NCBI RefSeq assembly: GCF_900105985.1
Contig: NZ_FNUB01000004.1
Coordinates: 37,501 to 101,500 of the forward strand
Direction: 5' to 3'
Origin: Tenacibaculum sp. MAR_2010_89
GTDB taxonomy: Bacteria; Bacteroidota; Bacteroidia; Flavobacteriales; Flavobacteriaceae
DNA length: 64,000 nucleotides
In this document: positions 5,455 to 13,016 of the stretch, piece by piece
Layout of the letters: each line of letters begins with the position of its first letter
Numbering within the stretch: position 1 is the first letter of the stretch
The notes under the pieces: model-generated
Database searches by the model: none
What the model saw: the letters and a program-made list of their open reading frames with translations, nothing else
Told to the model about the DNA's origin: nothing
Made by a program: the position numbers and the translations under genes

Positions 5455-5616
5455 GTTACAGCCATTTTTTTATTTTTACTAGTTGCAAAAAGCAATTATA
5501 TTTCTTAGGTTTGAAACACAAAAAATTGTACGGATACAAAATTGCTATATCTACACTTTTTTAGGCTGTATTTTTACTAAAAACAAAGAACTACGGTTAC
5601 CCATTAAGTTATCTTA
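5455..5616. other. Non-coding stretch with an outer inverted repeat
   Basis: TACAGCC at 5457-5463 is complementary to GGCTGTA at 5564-5570, enclosing about 100 AT-rich bases with small internal hairpins (TTGCaaaaaGCAA). It may be the folded remnant of another recombination site. No gene is seen. Confidence 0.35.
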
Positions 5617-5706
5617 GTACTTCTTTATATATTTACCTAAAGTTCCTTTTATCCGGAACTATAAACCAATAAACGAGAACTTTGTTCTCTATATAACGAG
5701 TTGGGC
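5617..5706 (+). repeat. Candidate recombination site opening the cassette array
   Basis: The stretch holds two short hairpins (AGTTCC/GGAACT and GAGAAC/GTTCTC) and ends with GTTGGGC at 5700-5706, a perfect match to the integron R' core GTTRRRY. The complement, GCCCAAC, begins the site at 7550 that closes this cassette. A left-hand core is not clear, so the site may be degenerate. A diverged copy is at 2517-2605. Confidence 0.45.
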
Positions 5707-5713
5707 TCCATAA

Positions 5714-6313
5714 ATGAAAACACTGTTGAATAAAGATTTTAAACAAAAAACCATTAATACTCTTAGAAAAAGAGCTGGTGAAATGTGTTCTATTTGTAAA
5801 CGCCTGACTTCTATACCTCATACGAATCCAGATAAGTTTATTAACCTTGGAGAGGCCGCACATATTAATGGGCAAAATGATGCTCCAAACAAAAGATACG
5901 ATTCATCCCTTACAAATGAATTTTTGTCTAGTGTTGCAAACGGAATTTGGCTATGCAGGGAATGTCATAAAAAAATCGATTCTGACGATAAGCATTATAC
6001 TGTTAAATTTTTAAATGGTTTAAAGGAGCAACATGAATCGGACTTATTTTCTGGTAAACTTAATTACACCAAATTTACTGAATATCAAAAACTCGAATTT
6101 GAAATATACTATTTAAAGGATGAGTTAAGCAAAATGAATAATTCTGAACTTGCCATAGAATTAAAAAATGCAGAGAAAGAAAAACAACAATTCAAAGAAA
6201 AAATAGAGGATATAGAACGGTCATTATTAACCACGAATAAATCTCTTGATGAAGCTAAAAAATGCTTTTTTGAAAAAAAACGATTTAGAAGCAACTTTGA
6301 ACATTATCAATGA
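5714..6313 (+). CDS. HNH endonuclease domain with coiled coil, frameshifted from the TPR part
   Basis: Residues 1-110 form an HNH nuclease domain: the zinc-like pair CSIC (25-28), GEAAHI with the presumed catalytic His50, RYDSSLT, NGIWLCRECHKKID (77-90) supplying CxxCH, and a YTVKFLNGLKEQHE helix. This is the HNH type often used as the DNA-cutting part of anti-phage effectors. Residues ~125-185 are a Glu/Lys-rich coiled coil. The frame then breaks in an A6 run (6257-6262). Removing one A joins it directly to the TPR protein in the next frame, giving one protein of about 611 residues. As it stands the reading ends at 6313 with an unrelated tail. A defence role is inference. Confidence 0.75.
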   Translation: MKTLLNKDFKQKTINTLRKRAGEMCSICKRLTSIPHTNPDKFINLGEAAHINGQNDAPNKRYDSSLTNEFLSSVANGIWLCRECHKKIDSDDKHYTVKFLNGLKEQHESDLFSGKLNYTKFTEYQKLEFEIYYLKDELSKMNNSELAIELKNAEKEKQQFKEKIEDIERSLLTTNKSLDEAKKCFFEKKRFRSNFEHYQ

Positions 6314-7550
6314 AAATAATTCATTAGTAGAAGAAAAGGTTATTTCTCAAAAAAGGTTATTAATAGCCCAAGTAAAAGAGGCGCAAGGAAAAATTGTTGA
6401 AGCTAAAATAAACTACAAAAAGTCTATTGAGATTTATGGCTATTTAGAAAATCTATTTTATTTTGGTAAATTTCTATATATCAATGGTCATTATACTGAA
6501 GCCATTAAAACATTTAAACGAATTGTTGGCCCAGAAAATGACCAATCAGTTAAAGAAACAAAACTTGACTATTCAACAATTCATATTCTAAATAGAACTT
6601 GCTTATTTCTTGCTCAAATATTCCAGTCTTTCAAAGACCTCAAAAGTGCTACACAGTATATTAATAACTCATTAGAATTTCAAAAATACTTAATCCAAAA
6701 GAATCCAAAAGAGATAGATTACCACATTAACACACTATCTATACAGGCAAGTTTACTTATCGAAAATGGACAACACAAAGATGCTCTGAAATTTAACAAC
6801 AAAGCTTTAGAGTTAACAGACTTAATTTTTGAGCCAAATTCTTATGAAAGAGCATCGTGTTTAGCTAATTTGGGAATCAACTACTACAACTTAAAAGATG
6901 GTGTTAATTCAAAAAAAAATCTCGATGAAGCCTTGAATATTTTAGAAAGCAAGCAAAATCATAATGAAAAAAGTAAAAGTACTTTAGCAAAACTATATTC
7001 TTGGCTATCCAGATTGACAGCGGACAAATCTTATTGTAAAAAAGCTTTAAACCTCTATTCAGAATTATCTTTACAAAATCCAAACAAGTATCTACGAGAA
7101 AAAATTATTTCTCAAATTGATTATGCCGGATCAATAGATAAATTAGAACAAAAAGAAAAATTATACGAAAACATATTAAAGCAAGAAGAAGAACTAATAA
7201 AATTTGACAAAAACATATATGAGCCTTTAATAGCTAATGTATACAGGATTTATGTTATGGATTTAATAAGTAATAATAAATTGGATAAAGCCCTTTTGAA
7301 AATTACTAAGTCTGTACAATTATTAATTAAAATTACTGACATTAATGAAAACTATCTTAAAGATTTAATAATCGCACTTAATATAAAAATTGATCTATTA
7401 CTTCACGACAAAATCAAAAACTTAAAGGAATTAGAAAATGATATCAATCTATTCAAAAGTATAATGAAAAAAGAAATGAATGAATCTAAAGAGTTCATGG
7501 ATGTATTTGAACAAAGACTAATATACTGTGAAGAAAAAATAAAAACGTAG
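6246..7550 (+). CDS. TPR-repeat region, probably the C-terminal part of the HNH protein
   Basis: About 430 residues of helical repeats. Recognisable tetratricopeptide units include KINYKKSIEIYGYLENLFYF, HKDALKFNNKALELTDLIFE and SCLANLGINYYNLKDGVNSK. The open frame has only weak internal starts (TTG-ATG at 6246), and its first residues (KNAFLKKNDLEATLNIINE) continue the coiled coil of the upstream HNH reading if one A is removed from 6257-6262. I therefore read both as one gene: nuclease, coiled coil, TPR sensor. TPR arrays fused to effector domains are a common layout in bacterial immune proteins. The gene ends exactly at the attC-like site at 7550. Confidence 0.7.
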   Translation: MMKLKNAFLKKNDLEATLNIINENNSLVEEKVISQKRLLIAQVKEAQGKIVEAKINYKKSIEIYGYLENLFYFGKFLYINGHYTEAIKTFKRIVGPENDQSVKETKLDYSTIHILNRTCLFLAQIFQSFKDLKSATQYINNSLEFQKYLIQKNPKEIDYHINTLSIQASLLIENGQHKDALKFNNKALELTDLIFEPNSYERASCLANLGINYYNLKDGVNSKKNLDEALNILESKQNHNEKSKSTLAKLYSWLSRLTADKSYCKKALNLYSELSLQNPNKYLREKIISQIDYAGSIDKLEQKEKLYENILKQEEELIKFDKNIYEPLIANVYRIYVMDLISNNKLDKALLKITKSVQLLIKITDINENYLKDLIIALNIKIDLLLHDKIKNLKELENDINLFKSIMKKEMNESKEFMDVFEQRLIYCEEKIKT

Positions 7551-7609
7551 CCCAACAAAACCTATAAAGCATACCCTACGGGATACGCTTCATAGCCGGG
7601 GCGTTACCT
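7550..7609 (+). repeat. attC-like site 2 (between HNH-TPR and serine hydrolase cassettes)
   Basis: Left core GCCCAAC (matches RYYYAAC), right core GTTACCT at 7603. Between them CTATAAAGC and GCTTCATAG form a 9-bp stem with one mismatch, capped by a CCC/GGG hairpin. Length 60 bp. The left core is the exact complement of GTTGGGC, which opens this cassette at 5700 (8 bases, AGCCCAAC/GTTGGGCT), as expected for an integron-type cassette. Confidence 0.65.
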
Positions 7610-7748
7610 TTCATTATTTATGAAAAATTGAAAGTTCACTAATTAAACACAAAAAAGTAATCATTTTATTGAATGTTTAAATTAAAAAGTTTTTAACCTT
7701 TACAAAATATAATTTGCGCTCTAATTAAAACGTTTAAATAAAATACCT

Positions 7749-9272
7749 ATGAAAGTAACAATAACATTATTCTTATCCACAATCTTACTCTTTTCTTGTA
7801 CAAAAACAAAGAAAACCAACTATTCTGAGTTCAATAAAGCATATACTAATTTCATAGAATTAGTTACAAATGAATACGGAGCGAAGTATGGAATGGCTAT
7901 ATCGGTCGTAAAAGACGACCGTATCATATTTGAGAAATATCTCGGAATGGCTGATGTAGATAAAAACATAAAGGTTAGCAAAAACACCCTCTTTTACATC
8001 GCTTCAATCACCAAATCTTTTACTGCAATGGCTGCCTTACGTCTTGAAGCTAAAGGAAAACTCGATTTTGATAAATCATTAGCCGAATTATTACCTGAAA
8101 TTAATTTTGCTCCAGACCTTAAAGCTGATAGTATTAAAATTGAACACTTAATTACACATACATCTGGAATAGAAAATAACCCATTAAGGAATTTAAAAGC
8201 TTATTCAGGCTCATATGACAAAAATAATTTACAAACTATATTGGAGAAATTCACTGTAGTTAACGAAGATGCTCCTTTTGGTAAATTTGAATATACCAAT
8301 ACAGGATACATCATCTTAGGAATGATTATGGAAAAAGAATTGGGGGTTGATTGGAAATCTTTAGTTCAGCAGGAAGTATTGCAACCCTTAAAAATGAAGC
8401 ATACAAGTACCCAAATGTCTAAGGCTATTGAGCAAGGTTTGGAAATTGCAAAACCACATACACAGAATAATGATGAAAATAAATTAGTCCGTCTTTTTTT
8501 AGAAAAAAAAGACAATACAATGCATGCCGCTGGAGGTATACTATCAACTGCTAAAGATATGGCTAGATATATGGTCGTAGCATTAAACAATGGTAAAATC
8601 GATGGAGAACAAGTAATTGACTCAAATTTGGTTAAGAATAGCCAGTTAAAACATGCTAAGCAGAATAGAATGTGGTATGATCTTAAACGATTCGGTTATG
8701 GTTACGGTTGGAACATCGCGACAACTCCGTTAGGAGATACACTAGTACACCATTTTGGCAGTTTTACCGGAATGCATCCTCAATTCTCATTCGTACGAGA
8801 AACCGGAGTAGGTGTTGTTATAATGGCAAATGAAGGAAAAATTAGTTATGATCTTAATATGCTCCTTAGTGCGTATGTATTTGATTATTTCTCTAAACGA
8901 GAAAACCTCGATACTCACTATAAAGATAAACTAAAAGAGTATCACGAAAACTACACTAAAAAGAAAAAATCAGATACTGAATATATGATTAAATTGGCGA
9001 AAAGAACTTGGAAACTTGAACTGCCTTTTTCTTTATATGCTGGAACCTATACAAGTGATTTATTTGGTACACTACTAGTAAAAGAAGTTGAAGAAAATAA
9101 ATTGATAGTTACAATTGGAAACCTTAAATCTGATATAGCAACACCACACAGAACTAATGCTATTAGAGTTGTTATGGGTGAGGAAGGTTCAGTAGTCCAA
9201 TTTGTAGTAAACGATGGTAAGGTAGAAAAAGCTATCTGGAAAGGACTAACATTTACCAAAATGACACATTAA
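7749..9272 (+). CDS. Serine hydrolase of the beta-lactamase/class C family, lipoprotein
   Basis: 507 residues. The N-terminus is a lipoprotein signal (LFSC, lipidated Cys17), so it is periplasmic and membrane-anchored. The beta-lactamase/esterase fold shows SITK (Ser86 nucleophile, Lys89), YTN (Tyr182, Asn184) and HFG (334-336) in place of KTG. These features suit a D-aminopeptidase, esterase or PBP4-like hydrolase; a true antibiotic-hydrolysing role is not implied. A C-terminal region (from ~400) forms a small beta domain common in this group. The gene is the only one between the sites at 7603 and 9285, so it appears to be a single-gene cassette. Confidence 0.9.
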   Translation: MKVTITLFLSTILLFSCTKTKKTNYSEFNKAYTNFIELVTNEYGAKYGMAISVVKDDRIIFEKYLGMADVDKNIKVSKNTLFYIASITKSFTAMAALRLEAKGKLDFDKSLAELLPEINFAPDLKADSIKIEHLITHTSGIENNPLRNLKAYSGSYDKNNLQTILEKFTVVNEDAPFGKFEYTNTGYIILGMIMEKELGVDWKSLVQQEVLQPLKMKHTSTQMSKAIEQGLEIAKPHTQNNDENKLVRLFLEKKDNTMHAAGGILSTAKDMARYMVVALNNGKIDGEQVIDSNLVKNSQLKHAKQNRMWYDLKRFGYGYGWNIATTPLGDTLVHHFGSFTGMHPQFSFVRETGVGVVIMANEGKISYDLNMLLSAYVFDYFSKRENLDTHYKDKLKEYHENYTKKKKSDTEYMIKLAKRTWKLELPFSLYAGTYTSDLFGTLLVKEVEENKLIVTIGNLKSDIATPHRTNAIRVVMGEEGSVVQFVVNDGKVEKAIWKGLTFTKMTH

Positions 9273-9284
9273 AAACAACGAAAA

Positions 9285-9415
9285 GGTAACATCGTATAAA
9301 ATTAATTGCTAGGTAAACCTAATTACGAAAATCCTCGCGGATTTTCTTTGTCAGTATTTATTTACTAAATTAGTTGATTAAACCACGTAACAAACCATAT
9401 ACAAACACGTTACCA
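9285..9415 (+). repeat. attC-like site 3 (after the serine hydrolase)
   Basis: Left core AGGTAAC at 9285-9291, right core GTTACCA at 9409-9415, 131 bp long. Inside are CGTATA near the left end, TATAC near the right end, and internal inverted repeats such as GAAAATCC/GGATTTTC around CTCGC. GAAAAGGTAAC complements the GTTACCTTTC that opens the serine hydrolase cassette at 7603, with one extra base. Confidence 0.6.
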
Positions 9416-9461
9416 CACATTATGACCCGTCCTGAAATAAGGCTACATAATTTTAAACATT

Positions 9462-9833
9462 ATGTATAGAAATGACAAAGTCATTAGACGTTACAGTGAA
9501 CCTTTCAAATTAAAAATTTTAGCCGAACTTACAATCGGAAAACACACAAAGAGCCAACTTTGTAAACTCTACTCCATTGCACCTACAACTGTAAACGAAT
9601 GGATTAAAAAATACAATCGTAAAGACTTAATGAACACCAGAGTAAAAGTGGAAACTAAAGACGAAATATCTAGAATCAAAGCACTTCAAAAAGAGATTGA
9701 ACAGCTTAAAAAACTACTACTTAAAAAGGATCTCGATGCTATGGTATTGGATTCTTACCTTGAAGTAGCAGCTGAAGACCTTGGGTACAAATCAGTTAAT
9801 GAACTAAAAAAAAAGCTAAGTATAAAGCCTTAA
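9462..9833 (+). CDS. IS3-family transposase OrfA
   Basis: 123 residues. An N-terminal helix-turn-helix (YSEPFKLKILAELTIGKHTK through TTVNEWIKKY) binds the element ends, and a leucine-zipper-like coiled coil follows (RIKALQKEIEQLKKLLLKK). Its last codons lie in the slippery run of nine A followed by G (9806-9815), where a -1 slip joins it to OrfB. It is the regulatory and DNA-recognition half of the OrfAB transposase. Confidence 0.9.
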   Translation: MYRNDKVIRRYSEPFKLKILAELTIGKHTKSQLCKLYSIAPTTVNEWIKKYNRKDLMNTRVKVETKDEISRIKALQKEIEQLKKLLLKKDLDAMVLDSYLEVAAEDLGYKSVNELKKKLSIKP

Positions 9834-10684
9834 TTAAAGCTAAAGAAAAAGCTAAGAGATTTGCTTCTTTAACTACTATAACACATTGTTTTGGGCTTAA
9901 ACGTGATGCGTATTACAAATACAAATCTAGAGCTGATAAACGTTTAGAACTCGAGAAACAGATTATAAAAATAGTTAGAAAAAGACGCAAATCTCTTCCT
10001 AGAGAAGGCGTACGTAAACTTGTAAAATCATTAGATGTAGATTTTAATAAAGGGAATATTAAAGTTGGTAGAGACACTTTATTTAATGTCCTTAGAAAAC
10101 ATCAAATGCTAACACTAAGAAAGAAAACTAGTGCCAGAACAACCAACTCTTATCATCGTTTTTATAAGTACAATAACCTAATAAAGAATATGAAAGTTAC
10201 TAAATCTAATCAAGTTTGGGTCTCAGATATAACATACATTAGAACCCTAAAAGGTTTTTGTTACCTAGCCTTAATAACTGACATGCATTCTAGGAAAATA
10301 GTTGGGTATGATCTTAGCGATAGTCTTGAACTAAAAGGATGTGTAAGAGCACTAAACAAGGCCATTTACCAAGCTAAAAATATTAAACAACTTATTCATC
10401 ATTCAGACAGAGGTATACAATATTGCAGTAATGTATACACGCAAATATTAAAAAGAAAAAAGATAGATATTAGTATGACTCAAGAAAATCATTGTTATGA
10501 AAATGCCATGGCAGAACGTGTAAATGGGATACTAAAAGATGAGTTTTATCTCGATCAAACCTTTGATAACGTAGCACAAGCAAAGAGAGCTACAAAAAAT
10601 GCAATTAATTTATACAACGAAATAAGATTACACTTATCTTTAGACTATAAAACACCTAATATGGTATACAAATTATCAGCGTAA
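9806..10684 (+). CDS. IS3-family transposase OrfB (DDE integrase domain), -1 frame
   Basis: The -1 frame is open from inside the A9G slip site at 9806 to the stop at 10684. The first part, KALIKAKEKAKRFASLTTIT and the YYKYKSR region, belongs to the OrfB HTH_21-like segment, so the ATG at 10106 is internal and not the real start. The rve/DDE core shows the first Asp in VWVSDITYI, the second in HHSDRGIQY and the Glu in NAMAERVNGILKDEF. It has no start of its own, so it is expected only as the OrfAB fusion that carries out transposition. Confidence 0.9.
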   Translation, partial: KKKAKYKALIKAKEKAKRFASLTTITHCFGLKRDAYYKYKSRADKRLELEKQIIKIVRKRRKSLPREGVRKLVKSLDVDFNKGNIKVGRDTLFNVLRKHQMLTLRKKTSARTTNSYHRFYKYNNLIKNMKVTKSNQVWVSDITYIRTLKGFCYLALITDMHSRKIVGYDLSDSLELKGCVRALNKAIYQAKNIKQLIHHSDRGIQYCSNVYTQILKRKKIDISMTQENHCYENAMAERVNGILKDEFYLDQTFDNVAQAKRATKNAINLYNEIRLHLSLDYKTPNMVYKLSA

Positions 10685-10729
10685 ATTCAATTTTAACCTG
10701 TAGCCATATTTCAGGACGAGACATAAGAA

Positions 10730-11209
10730 ATGACTAAGAAAAATAATAAATACACAAAGGTTTTATTCCGATACCACAGCAATGTTTTAGATGAAACGAC
10801 TGTTGAGACTATGTGGGCGATAAAAGTTGACGAGAAAAACGGAATTTATAAGTTGGATAGTATTCCCTTTTATGGCCCCCAAATTGCAACAGATGATGAA
10901 TTTTTTGCTGAGTATGATGAGTTAGAACAGATGCTAACTTACAGGAAAACAACCAAGTTTTCAGGGAATTCAATTGTATTGATTTCGATTATAAAAGAGG
11001 GAATTGATAAGGAGATAATTCGTGAGGAATTCAAATCAATGAACTGTACTTCTGAAGGACTTAATGATAGATACTTTTCTATGGAAATATTAGCATCTTC
11101 TAATTATCTGAAAATTAAAACCAAATTAGAGGAATATGAAAATCAAGGTATATTTGAATATGCTGAACCTTGTCTGTCTGATAAACACAGAAATGAAATA
11201 AATAACTAA
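10730..11209 (+). CDS. DUF4265-like hypothetical protein
   Basis: 159 residues, soluble. The WAIKVDEKNGIYKLDSIPFYGPQIATDDEFFAEYD stretch (two segments, residues ~23-60) fits DUF4265, in which a conserved Trp-Ala and an Ile-Pro-Phe-Tyr motif recur; function unknown. The start lies only 7 bases after the right end of the IS3 element, so its native upstream sequence has been replaced by the element and it may now depend on outward transcription. Its closing site (GCACAAC at 11210) does not match the cassette opening left of the IS. Confidence 0.65.
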   Translation: MTKKNNKYTKVLFRYHSNVLDETTVETMWAIKVDEKNGIYKLDSIPFYGPQIATDDEFFAEYDELEQMLTYRKTTKFSGNSIVLISIIKEGIDKEIIREEFKSMNCTSEGLNDRYFSMEILASSNYLKIKTKLEEYENQGIFEYAEPCLSDKHRNEINN

Positions 11210-11261
11210 GCACAACAAAACCTAAACTGCATTAAAACGCAGCTTAGCCAAACCGTTAGGC
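11210..11261 (+). repeat. attC-like site 4 (short form, before SUFU)
   Basis: Left core GCACAAC, right core GTTAGGC at 11255-11261, 52 bp. The stem CTAAaCTGC pairs with GCAGcTTAG around ATTAAAAC. The left side CACAACAAAACCTA closely matches CCCAACAAAACCTA of the site at 7550, which shows a shared site family. Confidence 0.6.
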
Positions 11262-11278
11262 ACAAGCTGAAAAAACCA

Positions 11279-11980
11279 ATGGCTGAATATCAAAATCCGT
11301 TCTCGGACAAAAAACATTATCACGAACACGCTGAATGGATTGAGGACCATTTAAGTAAATTCTTTGATGATAACTTGGTTTCCGTATTTCACGAAATCCC
11401 AACATTGGATTTACATCTTGATGTTTATTTAATAAAACCTGAAAATTCATCATTTAATATACTTCTAACTTCTGGAATGAGTATGTTAAAAATGAATGTC
11501 GATGAACAAGCAGAAAATCCAAAAAATTTGGAGTTTGCCGAATTAATGATGCTAATTCCGAAAAGTATTGAATTCGGACAAGTTTACTCTGGGAAGAATA
11601 AAAATGATTGGATTATTTCAATTCTTAAAAGAACAGCCAAATTCGCACATTTTTACGACACTTGGATAGGAATTGGACACACAATACAGGCAGAAGAAGA
11701 TTTGACACCTTATGGTAATGATACCGATTATGTTGGTGCATTAATTCTTCCTTCTGTTACTTTCGAAAAGGATTTTACTGAAATCAATAAAAACGGACGA
11801 AAAATAAATATTTATAACGTTCTTCCACTCTATAAAAACGAGATGGAGTTTAAAATAGAAAACGGATATAGTAAATTATTGGATTTACTAATAAAAGCGA
11901 ACGGAAAGGAAGTCTTGGATTTGAATAGAAAAAATCTGATTTCTAAAAAATCGTTTTGGGATAAAATTAAAGGCAAGTGA
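11279..11980 (+). CDS. Suppressor-of-fused (SUFU) domain protein
   Basis: 233 residues without signal peptide. The pattern HLDVYLIKPENSSFNILLTSGMS (two segments from residue ~46), the ELMMLIPK segment (~88) and the late VGALILPSVTF and INIYNVLPLYKNEM pieces are typical of bacterial SUFU-family proteins (PF05076). These are often immunity proteins of polymorphic toxins or orphan cassettes; no toxin is adjacent here. It is flanked by GTTAGGCAC (opening, 11255) and GTGCCTAAC (closing, 12001-12009), an exact 9-base complement. Confidence 0.85.
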   Translation: MAEYQNPFSDKKHYHEHAEWIEDHLSKFFDDNLVSVFHEIPTLDLHLDVYLIKPENSSFNILLTSGMSMLKMNVDEQAENPKNLEFAELMMLIPKSIEFGQVYSGKNKNDWIISILKRTAKFAHFYDTWIGIGHTIQAEEDLTPYGNDTDYVGALILPSVTFEKDFTEINKNGRKINIYNVLPLYKNEMEFKIENGYSKLLDLLIKANGKEVLDLNRKNLISKKSFWDKIKGK

Positions 11981-12000
11981 TTAACCGAAAAGAAAAGCCA

Positions 12001-12134
12001 GTGCCTAACAATGTATAAAAATAATGCTAAATTAGGTGCTTAATTAAAGGTTAGTGCAATTTTGTTACGTCTGATTTTCCTACGGAAAATCCTCGCACAC
12101 AAAACCGCACTATTCTTATACTAGACCGTTACCA
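12001..12134 (+). repeat. attC-like site 5 (after SUFU)
   Basis: Left core GCCTAAC (12003-12009, matches RYYYAAC), right core GTTACCA (12128-12134). The arms GTATAAAAATAATGC and GCACTATTCTTATAC pair at 13 of 15 positions. A second hairpin inside has GATTTTCC/GGAAAATC around TACG. Total 134 bp. GTGCCTAAC is the exact complement of the GTTAGGCAC that opens the SUFU cassette. Confidence 0.7.
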
Positions 12135-12155
12135 GCAATAAAAACTAACTCACAA

Positions 12156-12812
12156 ATGATAAACTTTTTCAACCGAACAAAATCAAATATAAATTCAATT
12201 GTAATTCCTGATTTTGGGTGGAAAAAACAAAAAGCAGACAAAAGTATAATTCAATGGATTAACGCTGAACAAACAATCGCTTTATCCTTAAATTATTTTG
12301 ACTTAAAACCTGACTTACCTTCATTAAAAAAGATTGACGTAGTTAGAGCTTTTTACAGAGGTCAGATTTCTCAAGCAAATGGAGGATTAATTCAAGTTGA
12401 CTATTCTGATATAAAACATCAAGCTATCAAAACAATATTTAAAATACCTCAAGAGCCTTCTGGTATGGTTTACTTAGCTTCATTAACAATTCCTTTTAAA
12501 AACTGTAGTTATGTTATAAAAATACAAGCACCTGAAATAGGAATGACTGGAATAAGAGATTCTATTATAGCTGACAAATTAATGCAAGAGGGAAAAATAG
12601 ATATTGGAGAGAATGGATATAAAAACTGGTTTTCTGATCCATATGATAGTAATTATAGTGGTGGAACTTTGATGAATAAATCTGAAGACCCTATTTATGA
12701 TTTAGATTTTGAAAACCACCCTTTAACACAAGCACGCAAATTGATGTCTCAAATTGAAAAAGAGATTGAATTTAAACCTGAAATTGAAAAATTAAAACAG
12801 TTCATAAAATAA
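12156..12812 (+). CDS. Hypothetical cassette protein
   Basis: 218 residues, soluble, family not recognised. No signal peptide or membrane segment. An N-terminal half of alternating beta-like strands (IQWINAEQTIALSLNYFDL, VYLASLTIPFKNCSYVIKIQ) is followed by WFSDPYDSNYSGG, a conserved-looking turn, and a helical C-terminus after HPLTQARKLMSQIEKEIEF. The shape suggests a single compact domain like many immunity or antitoxin proteins, but this is a guess. It is the only gene between the sites at 12128 and 12817. Confidence 0.5.
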   Translation: MINFFNRTKSNINSIVIPDFGWKKQKADKSIIQWINAEQTIALSLNYFDLKPDLPSLKKIDVVRAFYRGQISQANGGLIQVDYSDIKHQAIKTIFKIPQEPSGMVYLASLTIPFKNCSYVIKIQAPEIGMTGIRDSIIADKLMQEGKIDIGENGYKNWFSDPYDSNYSGGTLMNKSEDPIYDLDFENHPLTQARKLMSQIEKEIEFKPEIEKLKQFIK

Positions 12813-12813
12813 C

Positions 12814-13016
12814 TGCAGGTAACACGGTATATAAAACATAGCTAATAAAGGCTAAACCGAAAGGTTTGTGTATATTTATGAAGCCCGCTAAATTTTTAAT
12901 TTGGCTTTTAAAAAGAGAAAAATTAAAAACAAAATATAAAAATTCGGCTCTGTGTTTATCCGAAAAGTTAGTGTCTTTTTATACGCTACGTTTCATACAC
13001 AAGACCGTTACCTGCA
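12814..13016 (+). repeat. attC-like site 6 (long form, end of the array)
   Basis: TGCAGGTAAC at 12814-12823 is the perfect 10-base complement of GTTACCTGCA at 13007-13016. The inner arms are GTATATAAAACATAGC and GCTACGTTTCATAC. About 150 bases of AT-rich inner sequence contain further inverted pieces (GGCTAAACC/GGTTTGTG, AAATTTTTAATTT). About 200 bp. The opening of its own cassette (GTTACCAGCA, 12128) matches at 9 of 10 positions. Confidence 0.6.

Follow-up and report, generated by a model that had tools for sequence, protein, structure and literature searches.

Sedentary chromosomal integrons of the Vibrio superintegron type hold dozens of accessory genes in arrays of single-gene cassettes that all point in one direction. 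Each cassette ends in a hairpin site (attC) whose AAC and GTT cores pair with the cores of its own cassette, and the array starts at an insertion site (attI) beside the recombinase gene. In reverse integrons, known from Treponema denticola and Blastopirellula, an IntI recombinase gene is oriented the same way as the cassettes (PMC6557892), while clusters of attC sites lacking integron integrases (CALINs) have sites and no adjacent recombinase (IntegronFinder 2.0, PMC9024848). A paper on archaeal integrons takes an IntI-specific domain as defining (PMC9668308), and the insert carried by IntI is viewed as essential for function, although it is not fully conserved in an integron-like subgroup (PMC8138268). 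Bacteroidota are named in a review among the phyla with integrons (PMC8618304), and IntegronFinder 2.0 recorded one complete integron in Bacteroidetes proper, in Salinibacter (PMC9024848). Here we describe a 64-kb stretch of the Tenacibaculum sp. MAR_2010_89 genome (G000, contig C4, 37501-101500; hereafter the window), and conclude from sequence comparisons that the cassettes in it very probably form a satellite array belonging to an integron-like chromosomal system that is widespread in Flavobacteriaceae and presumably run by a recombinase encoded elsewhere.

The array and its presumed parent system share with sedentary chromosomal integrons all of the features listed above, and with reverse integrons the orientation of the recombinase gene. 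They differ from the sedentary type in having a recombinase of a separate clade without the IntI insert, right cores that mostly do not fit GTTRRRY, a stem with two conserved G.T wobbles, and several attI-headed arrays per genome. Reverse integrons have IntI; here the recombinase gene is not an IntI, and the attI lies across or behind its 3' end. The window array is like a CALIN in its lack of an adjacent recombinase, and unlike one in possessing its own copy of attI and a likely recombinase in the same genome. By sequence, the enzyme is closest to XerA-type recombinases (NF040815; 5hxy, 4a8e), from which it departs by a score below the family cut-off, an extra N-terminal domain of ~95 aa and its linkage to cassette arrays. 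The system thus appears to work like an integron, or a reverse integron, yet its recombinase scores under the IntI cut-off, and the variant appears to be new. We found no earlier report of such Flavobacteriaceae arrays in the literature searched, which included no preprints and few subscription papers; that the enzyme differs from the integron-defining IntI may explain why the arrays were overlooked.

A first-pass annotation of the window had proposed five single-gene units of one direction, delimited by five attC-like sites and one opening core, and had read them as integron-type cassettes with what might be a Bacteroidota variant of the site. The sequence supports that reading, and the positions of the sites and of the opening core were all found to be correct. 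Every unit points rightward; as to single genes, unit 1 consists of two overlapping open reading frames (ORFs) and unit 3 is split by an IS3-family insertion sequence (IS). Two covariance models are used below, R1, which was built from the five window sites only, and R2, an improved model. R1 recovered sites 1 and 3 well, site 5 partly, and sites 2 and 4 weakly or misaligned because their loops were cut in training; R2 recovered sites 2-5 among the matches listed. The features are as follows, the main attI being the one at the recombinase gene on contig C5.

2544..2593, plus strand: degenerate attI relic, 78% identical to the main attI over 51 columns
5471..5703, plus strand: solitary attI unit, terminating at the GTT core; the other five copies in the genome align over 205-252 nt
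5700..5707, plus strand: opening core GTTGGGCT
5714..7550, plus strand: cassette 1 cargo, an HNH_2 ORF (5714-6313) and a TPR ORF (6246-7550) that overlap in different frames
7549..7609, plus strand: attC-like site 1, short form, with a bottom-strand stem; R1 59.2 bits (training row)
7749..9272, plus strand: cassette 2 cargo, a serine hydrolase of beta-lactamase-like fold (PF00144)
9281..9417, plus strand: attC-like site 2, long form; R2 89.8 bits, weak by R1
9423..10723, plus strand: IS3-family copy, with HTH_Tnp_1 at 9462-9833 and rve at 10106-10684; right end judged by eye
10730..11209, plus strand: cassette 3 cargo, a DUF4265 protein
11208..11263, plus strand: attC-like site 3, short form; R1 56.8 bits (training row)
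11279..11980, plus strand: cassette 4 cargo, a SUFU-domain protein
12001..12137, plus strand: attC-like site 4, long form; R2 69.4 bits, R1 alignment not end to end
12156..12812, plus strand: cassette 5 cargo protein, with no Pfam match at E<=1e-3
12814..13016, plus strand: attC-like site 5, long form, 203 nt; R2 58.4 bits
13021..13090, plus strand: remnant of the same IS as at 9423-10723, 70 nt (length counted by eye)

The cargo named in the first-pass annotation (HNH-TPR, SUFU, serine hydrolase) has matching domains in cassettes 1, 4 and 2, respectively. The HNH and TPR frames of cassette 1 overlap near an A-rich run and may be a single frameshifted gene. Behind the relic at 2544-2593, no attC-like site was found in the R1 scan.

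The core that opens a cassette had been described as complementary to the core that closes it, and this holds for cassettes 1, 2, 4 and 5, in which the positions after GTT agree, ungapped, at 6 of 7. Cassette 3 showed 0 of 7; its opening core was sought near the IS and not found there, and interruption of the unit by the IS3-family copy may explain the missing pairing. For every closing core, the five bases that continue it have a single exact match among the 1131 plus-strand GTT triplets of the window. With cores 1, 2 and 4 this match is the opening core of the same cassette; with core 5 it falls on the right core of that very site, the cassette 5 opening core differing at one base, and with core 3 on an unrelated place, 61066.

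The same relation was observed in the larger set of arrays, after 11 of 502 hits without clear cores had been left out. The four bases after GTT matched fully within the cassette's own pair of cores in 333 of 411 cases and within the same site in 26 of 411; for six bases the corresponding values were 321 and 16. On average 3.61 of the four bases matched in own cassettes, as compared to 1.56 when shuffled. A core pair that is kept while its neighbours change is the pattern that insertion of circles leaves. In 144 of 213 pairs of near-identical cassettes at different places, the right-hand match breaks off 2-6 nt beyond G/TT; both this set and the preceding one include locus L042, which overlaps the window, and loci L028 and L043, which come from one genome (3 of the 213 pairs). 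In genome G051 a 1418-nt cassette, 99.6% identical, is found in two arrays ~0.5 Mb apart, and at locus L024 of the Tenacibaculum genome a 274-aa cassette protein occurs twice, with flanks that differ, by eye, just beyond the GTT cores. Cassettes therefore appear, as far as their ends can tell, to move singly, with boundaries at G/TT. Many within-genome copies might also be left by frozen relics of a past enzyme, now duplicated only via homologous recombination between attC repeats, and the similarity of attC sequences would permit such exchange. Homologous exchange would not, however, preserve the complementarity of outer cores (333/411), and the recombinase described below is conserved, six named residues being invariant in 71 sequences; we regard this explanation as highly improbable.

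Folding of the sites gave a concordant picture. The bottom strands of the five window sites share one common 18-pair structure in which 97.7% of 87 cells are paired, in agreement with the internal imperfect stems noted in the first-pass annotation. Seven pairs are altered on both sides, and the number of cells altered on both sides is 13, against a shuffled mean of 5.0. No shuffle out of 500 reached the observed values for paired cells, doubly altered cells or covariation, and 7 and 34 of 500 did so for the measures that count pairs and types, with the structure having been derived from the same five sequences that were tested. Folding is more stable for the bottom strand than for the top in all five window sites and in 450 of 472 attC-like sites overall, and an alignment of such sites was 97% paired with covariation above all 500 shuffles. 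Two G.T wobbles are invariant in the window sites; they are G.U in 148 and 149, respectively, of the 149 best-scoring sites, a set picked by the model and hence biased. As had been noted for several window cores, right cores depart from the integron consensus: GTTRRRY fits 37 of 477 and RYYYAAC 41 of 477 sites. The hallmarks of attC, namely a bottom-strand hairpin and outer cores ending in AAC and starting with GTT, are present, and no Rfam family covers the window sites at gathering score.

The start codon lies 30 nt (median) after GTT and the stop 12 nt (median) before AAC, and an ORF of >=50 aa, present in 358 cassettes, runs in the array direction in 334 and in the opposite one in 24 (52 cassettes lack such an ORF). 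Hairpins that begin so close to stop codons could in principle be terminators, repetitive extragenic palindromic elements or miniature inverted-repeat transposable elements that merely sit at gene ends. We consider this hardly credible in view of the near-uniform strand of the hairpins in each array, the compensatory changes, the pairing of cores across a whole gene and the linkage to one recombinase.

The first-pass annotation had seen no tyrosine integrase in the window and had allowed for one encoded elsewhere: all 9 PF00589 places found in the genome fall outside the window, and the likely enzyme is encoded on another contig. A search of the genome with a custom model of the window sites, as had been proposed, led to it. 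R1 detected three window sites, one weak match (E 0.37) and two strong matches, C5:1672638 and C5:1680035, which adjoin a recombinase gene on the minus strand at C5:1681534-1682727 (locus L024, 11535-12728). The cassette array of L024 begins at the 3' end of this gene. The product, 397 aa, comprises Phage_int_SAM_4 and Phage_integrase domains and ~95 extra N-terminal residues. It is not the integron-type integrase that the annotation had suggested looking for, as it scored 193.9 bits against IntI (TIGR02249), in two stretches and under the cut-off of 265. Against the XerA family NF040815 it scored 204.5 bits (cut-off 220) and against 5hxy 138.8 bits.

IntI4 residues 199-244 have no counterpart in the recombinase. 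The IntI-specific insert near patch III appeared as a 39-column run that was filled in >70% of 11 IntI and gapped in >80% of 28 family members, and the run was gapped in every recombinase-family member shown. A 46-row tree was drawn from loci with a usable reading frame (28 family members, 11 of 12 IntI loci and 3 of 8 other recombinase loci); the recombinase family formed one clade (91/97; a single group in 92% of bootstrap trees) and IntI a separate clade (100/100), some rows having very long branches. Residues R233, K258, H322, R325, H348 and Y357, which we take to be the catalytic residues of a tyrosine recombinase, are among the invariant columns of 71 recombinases. The N-terminal 86 aa bear a weak likeness to the HARP/XPB fork-binding fold, with ACT-like CASTOR domains placed slightly above XPB by VIA-align. 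Related recombinases of genomes G181, G173 and G189 (L169, L170 and L171, respectively) are short, with open frames of 280-319 aa, and the match begins past the N-terminal domain; their arrays are divergent from the recombinase gene, which is the usual integron layout.

To examine linkage we used the best 80 of at least 544 recombinase loci from a genome scan with the recombinase alignment. These are labelled Flavobacteriaceae or Flavobacteriales, one is labelled Bacteroidetes only, and the remaining labels are genera that we presume to belong to Flavobacteriaceae or Flavobacteriales. R1 gave 64 matches (E<=1) in these loci, all 64 downstream of the recombinase and 63 in the orientation that an array leading away from its 3' end would have. 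With nhmmer models, 183 sites were found in 357 kb downstream and 0 in 737 kb upstream, and after a length filter no downstream site was on the other strand. Among 38 loci with >=3 kb of sequence downstream, 35 have a site. In 53 of 75 loci an attI-like motif, WTAWARCNNGTT, comes after the recombinase stop codon (median distance 33 nt), compared with 3 of 1600 random 80-mers; the other 5 of the 80 loci had no stop or <60 nt after it. For 57 loci from a preselected list of 60, the wider consensus was GGAAA...TATATTTG...GATATAACNAGTT. In 20 of 28 cases the attI core and the core that closes the first cassette pair fully (4/4), compared with 3 of 28 for the two cores of the closing site itself, so that an attI next to the recombinase gene does appear to be used by the first cassette. 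For a cassette promoter (Pc) in attI the same 57 loci give a divided picture: TAnnTTTG, which we take to be the Bacteroidota promoter motif, stands at -22/-23 (23 cases) or -17 (one case) from GTT in 24 attIs, and a second element, TTG near -33, was found in none of those 24.

The window array is, by its sequence, one of several that start at a detached attI. The 64 nt at 5639-5702 are 92% identical to the attI at the recombinase 3' end, including the last codons (..KFLLSG..) and the stop. Besides the main attI (C5:1681504), the genome has six solitary copies, at C4:43100 (that of the window), C4:294970, C5:1453446, C5:2850876, C5:3161341 and C5:3214325. When compared with the window copy, four of the other five end at or <=1 nt from GTT, and one continues ~25 nt further. 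Four of these five are followed, after 0.4-3 kb, by correctly oriented R2 sites; past C4:294970, whose core is ATT and not GTT, there was no R2 site among the matches listed. The second, recombinase-free array of G051 likewise begins with a 101-nt attI copy, 99% identical, that ends at GTT. As the solitary copies match each other and mostly end at GTT, attI appears to spread as a unit. The copies form a dispersed family with units of ~200-230 nt, and another tyrosine recombinase domain (C5:1453942) lies ~0.4 kb from one of them, C5:1453446. Remains of a recombinase gene were sought with tblastn ahead of the window attI and not found, the only two matches being chance ones elsewhere in the window.

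Sites of this kind are common in the family. A scan of 100 Flavobacteriaceae genomes with R2 (E<=1e-3), each from a different genus, detected them in 92, with matches counted up to 32 per genome. The longest arrays found with nhmmer, each on a single strand, have 97 sites over 77.6 kb (G135), 76 (G080), 56 and 49 (both G051) and 49 (G097); in G135 the recombinase 3' end is ~0.6 kb from the last site found. We examined the recombinase in 20 of the 100 genomes, namely all 8 without sites and 12 of the 92 with sites, and detected it (E<=1e-50) in 11 of the 12 and 0 of the 8. Phylum-wide, 75 of 247 genomes have sites (E<=1e-4); in genus g116 of this draw the proportion was 4 of 14, so Flavobacteriaceae are not uniform. 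Outside the family, the recombinase (E<=1e-55) was present in 10 of 19 site-bearing genomes tested, picked from 58.

The integron-like anatomy raises the question of whether these are ordinary cassettes of a canonical IntI, now lost or supplied from outside, as in a classical CALIN, with the XerA-like enzyme an unrelated neighbour. Among 247 genomes of the GTDB phylum, 70 do have IntI over the cut-off, some phylum members with true IntI have R2 sites, and two of these, G224 and G286, lack the XerA-like recombinase at E<=1e-55. Yet none of 39 relatives, of which 24 share the genus of the window genome, had IntI over the cut-off, nor did any of the 27 genomes of family f1 in the phylum draw. In the Flavobacteriaceae sampled, IntI over the cut-off was thus not found, although 92 of 100 genera have the sites. 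Moreover, the arrays begin at the 3' end of the other recombinase; in G173 and G189 the XerA-like recombinase has R2-type sites at a distance of 1-2 kb, the IntI being on another contig; and, as noted, few right cores (37/477) fit GTTRRRY. We judge a lost or external IntI to be highly improbable.

Several observations weigh against cassettes run by the XerA-like enzyme. The training of models R2 and A6 drew in part on loci that were later scanned. Loci L079, L090 and L104 have the recombinase and no nhmmer site in >=3 kb downstream, R1 matching in L090 and L104; matches on the opposite strand occur once each in L048 (R1) and L062 (unfiltered nhmmer) and at L123:4945 (R2, outside the G051 arrays); and the attI motif is absent in 22 of 75 loci. 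No recombinase at E<=1e-50 accompanies the 29 sites of G100, and outside the family 9 of the 19 site-bearing genomes lack it at E<=1e-55, with G224 and G286 among the nine, where the true IntI might serve such sites. Full own-core pairing is missing in 78 of 411 cassettes, and 69 of 213 cassette pairs end >6 nt from the cut. The left cassette boundary is often blurred, since identity continues into the similar upstream attC, and only the right boundary is therefore diagnostic. Taken with these exceptions, the sequences nevertheless support the array anatomy, the complementarity of cores, the linkage of recombinase, attI and array, the exact right boundaries and the dispersed attIs.

We propose the following mechanism for an integron-like system run by the XerA-like recombinase. 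A cassette would be one gene plus a 3' attC hairpin, and the 397-aa enzyme would recombine cassettes at G/TT of the right core. The substrate would be the folded bottom strand, which the conserved G.T wobbles make the more stable one. Two kinds of place would take up cassette circles: the attI-like site CCGGAAA...TATATTTG...GATATAACnAG/TT at the recombinase gene's 3' end, and solitary attI copies such as that at the head of the window array (5703), on which the enzyme would act in trans. The extra N-terminal domain, weakly HARP/XPB-like, may replace the missing IntI insert. Whether this amounts to a second enzymatic solution for the capture of folded single-stranded cassette ends, in which a XerA-like recombinase with a HARP-like N-terminal domain doing the job of the IntI insert would serve several attI-headed arrays in trans in many Flavobacteriaceae and some other Bacteroidota, is a matter on which we see the balance as even. 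If the enzyme works in this way, a major marine family has gene storage on the scale of a superintegron, and an enzyme that has no IntI insert would make it possible to test whether that insert is as essential as is held. With solitary attI copies, a genome could add places of capture and need no further copy of the recombinase.

The IS3-family element of cassette 3 looks as if it homes to attC in a fixed register. Its left end lies exactly 14 nt past the G of the attC right core in all five exact left-end matches (window 9423 and 13021, L204:1654, L205:1637 and L061:12250), and the same 14-nt register was seen, by reading, in L024. Of 20 long IS matches listed in the genus, 13 start at or near the beginning of the preceding attC.

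Cargo was surveyed in 139 cassette ORFs of L024 and L123-L141 (set A9) and is mixed. Single members match the PtuA, SoFic, PifA and PD-Lambda-2 defence models, among the first 25 of 112 and of 78 families. The families listed also include ParE-type toxins (at least 4), immunity proteins, dehydrogenases and acetyltransferases.

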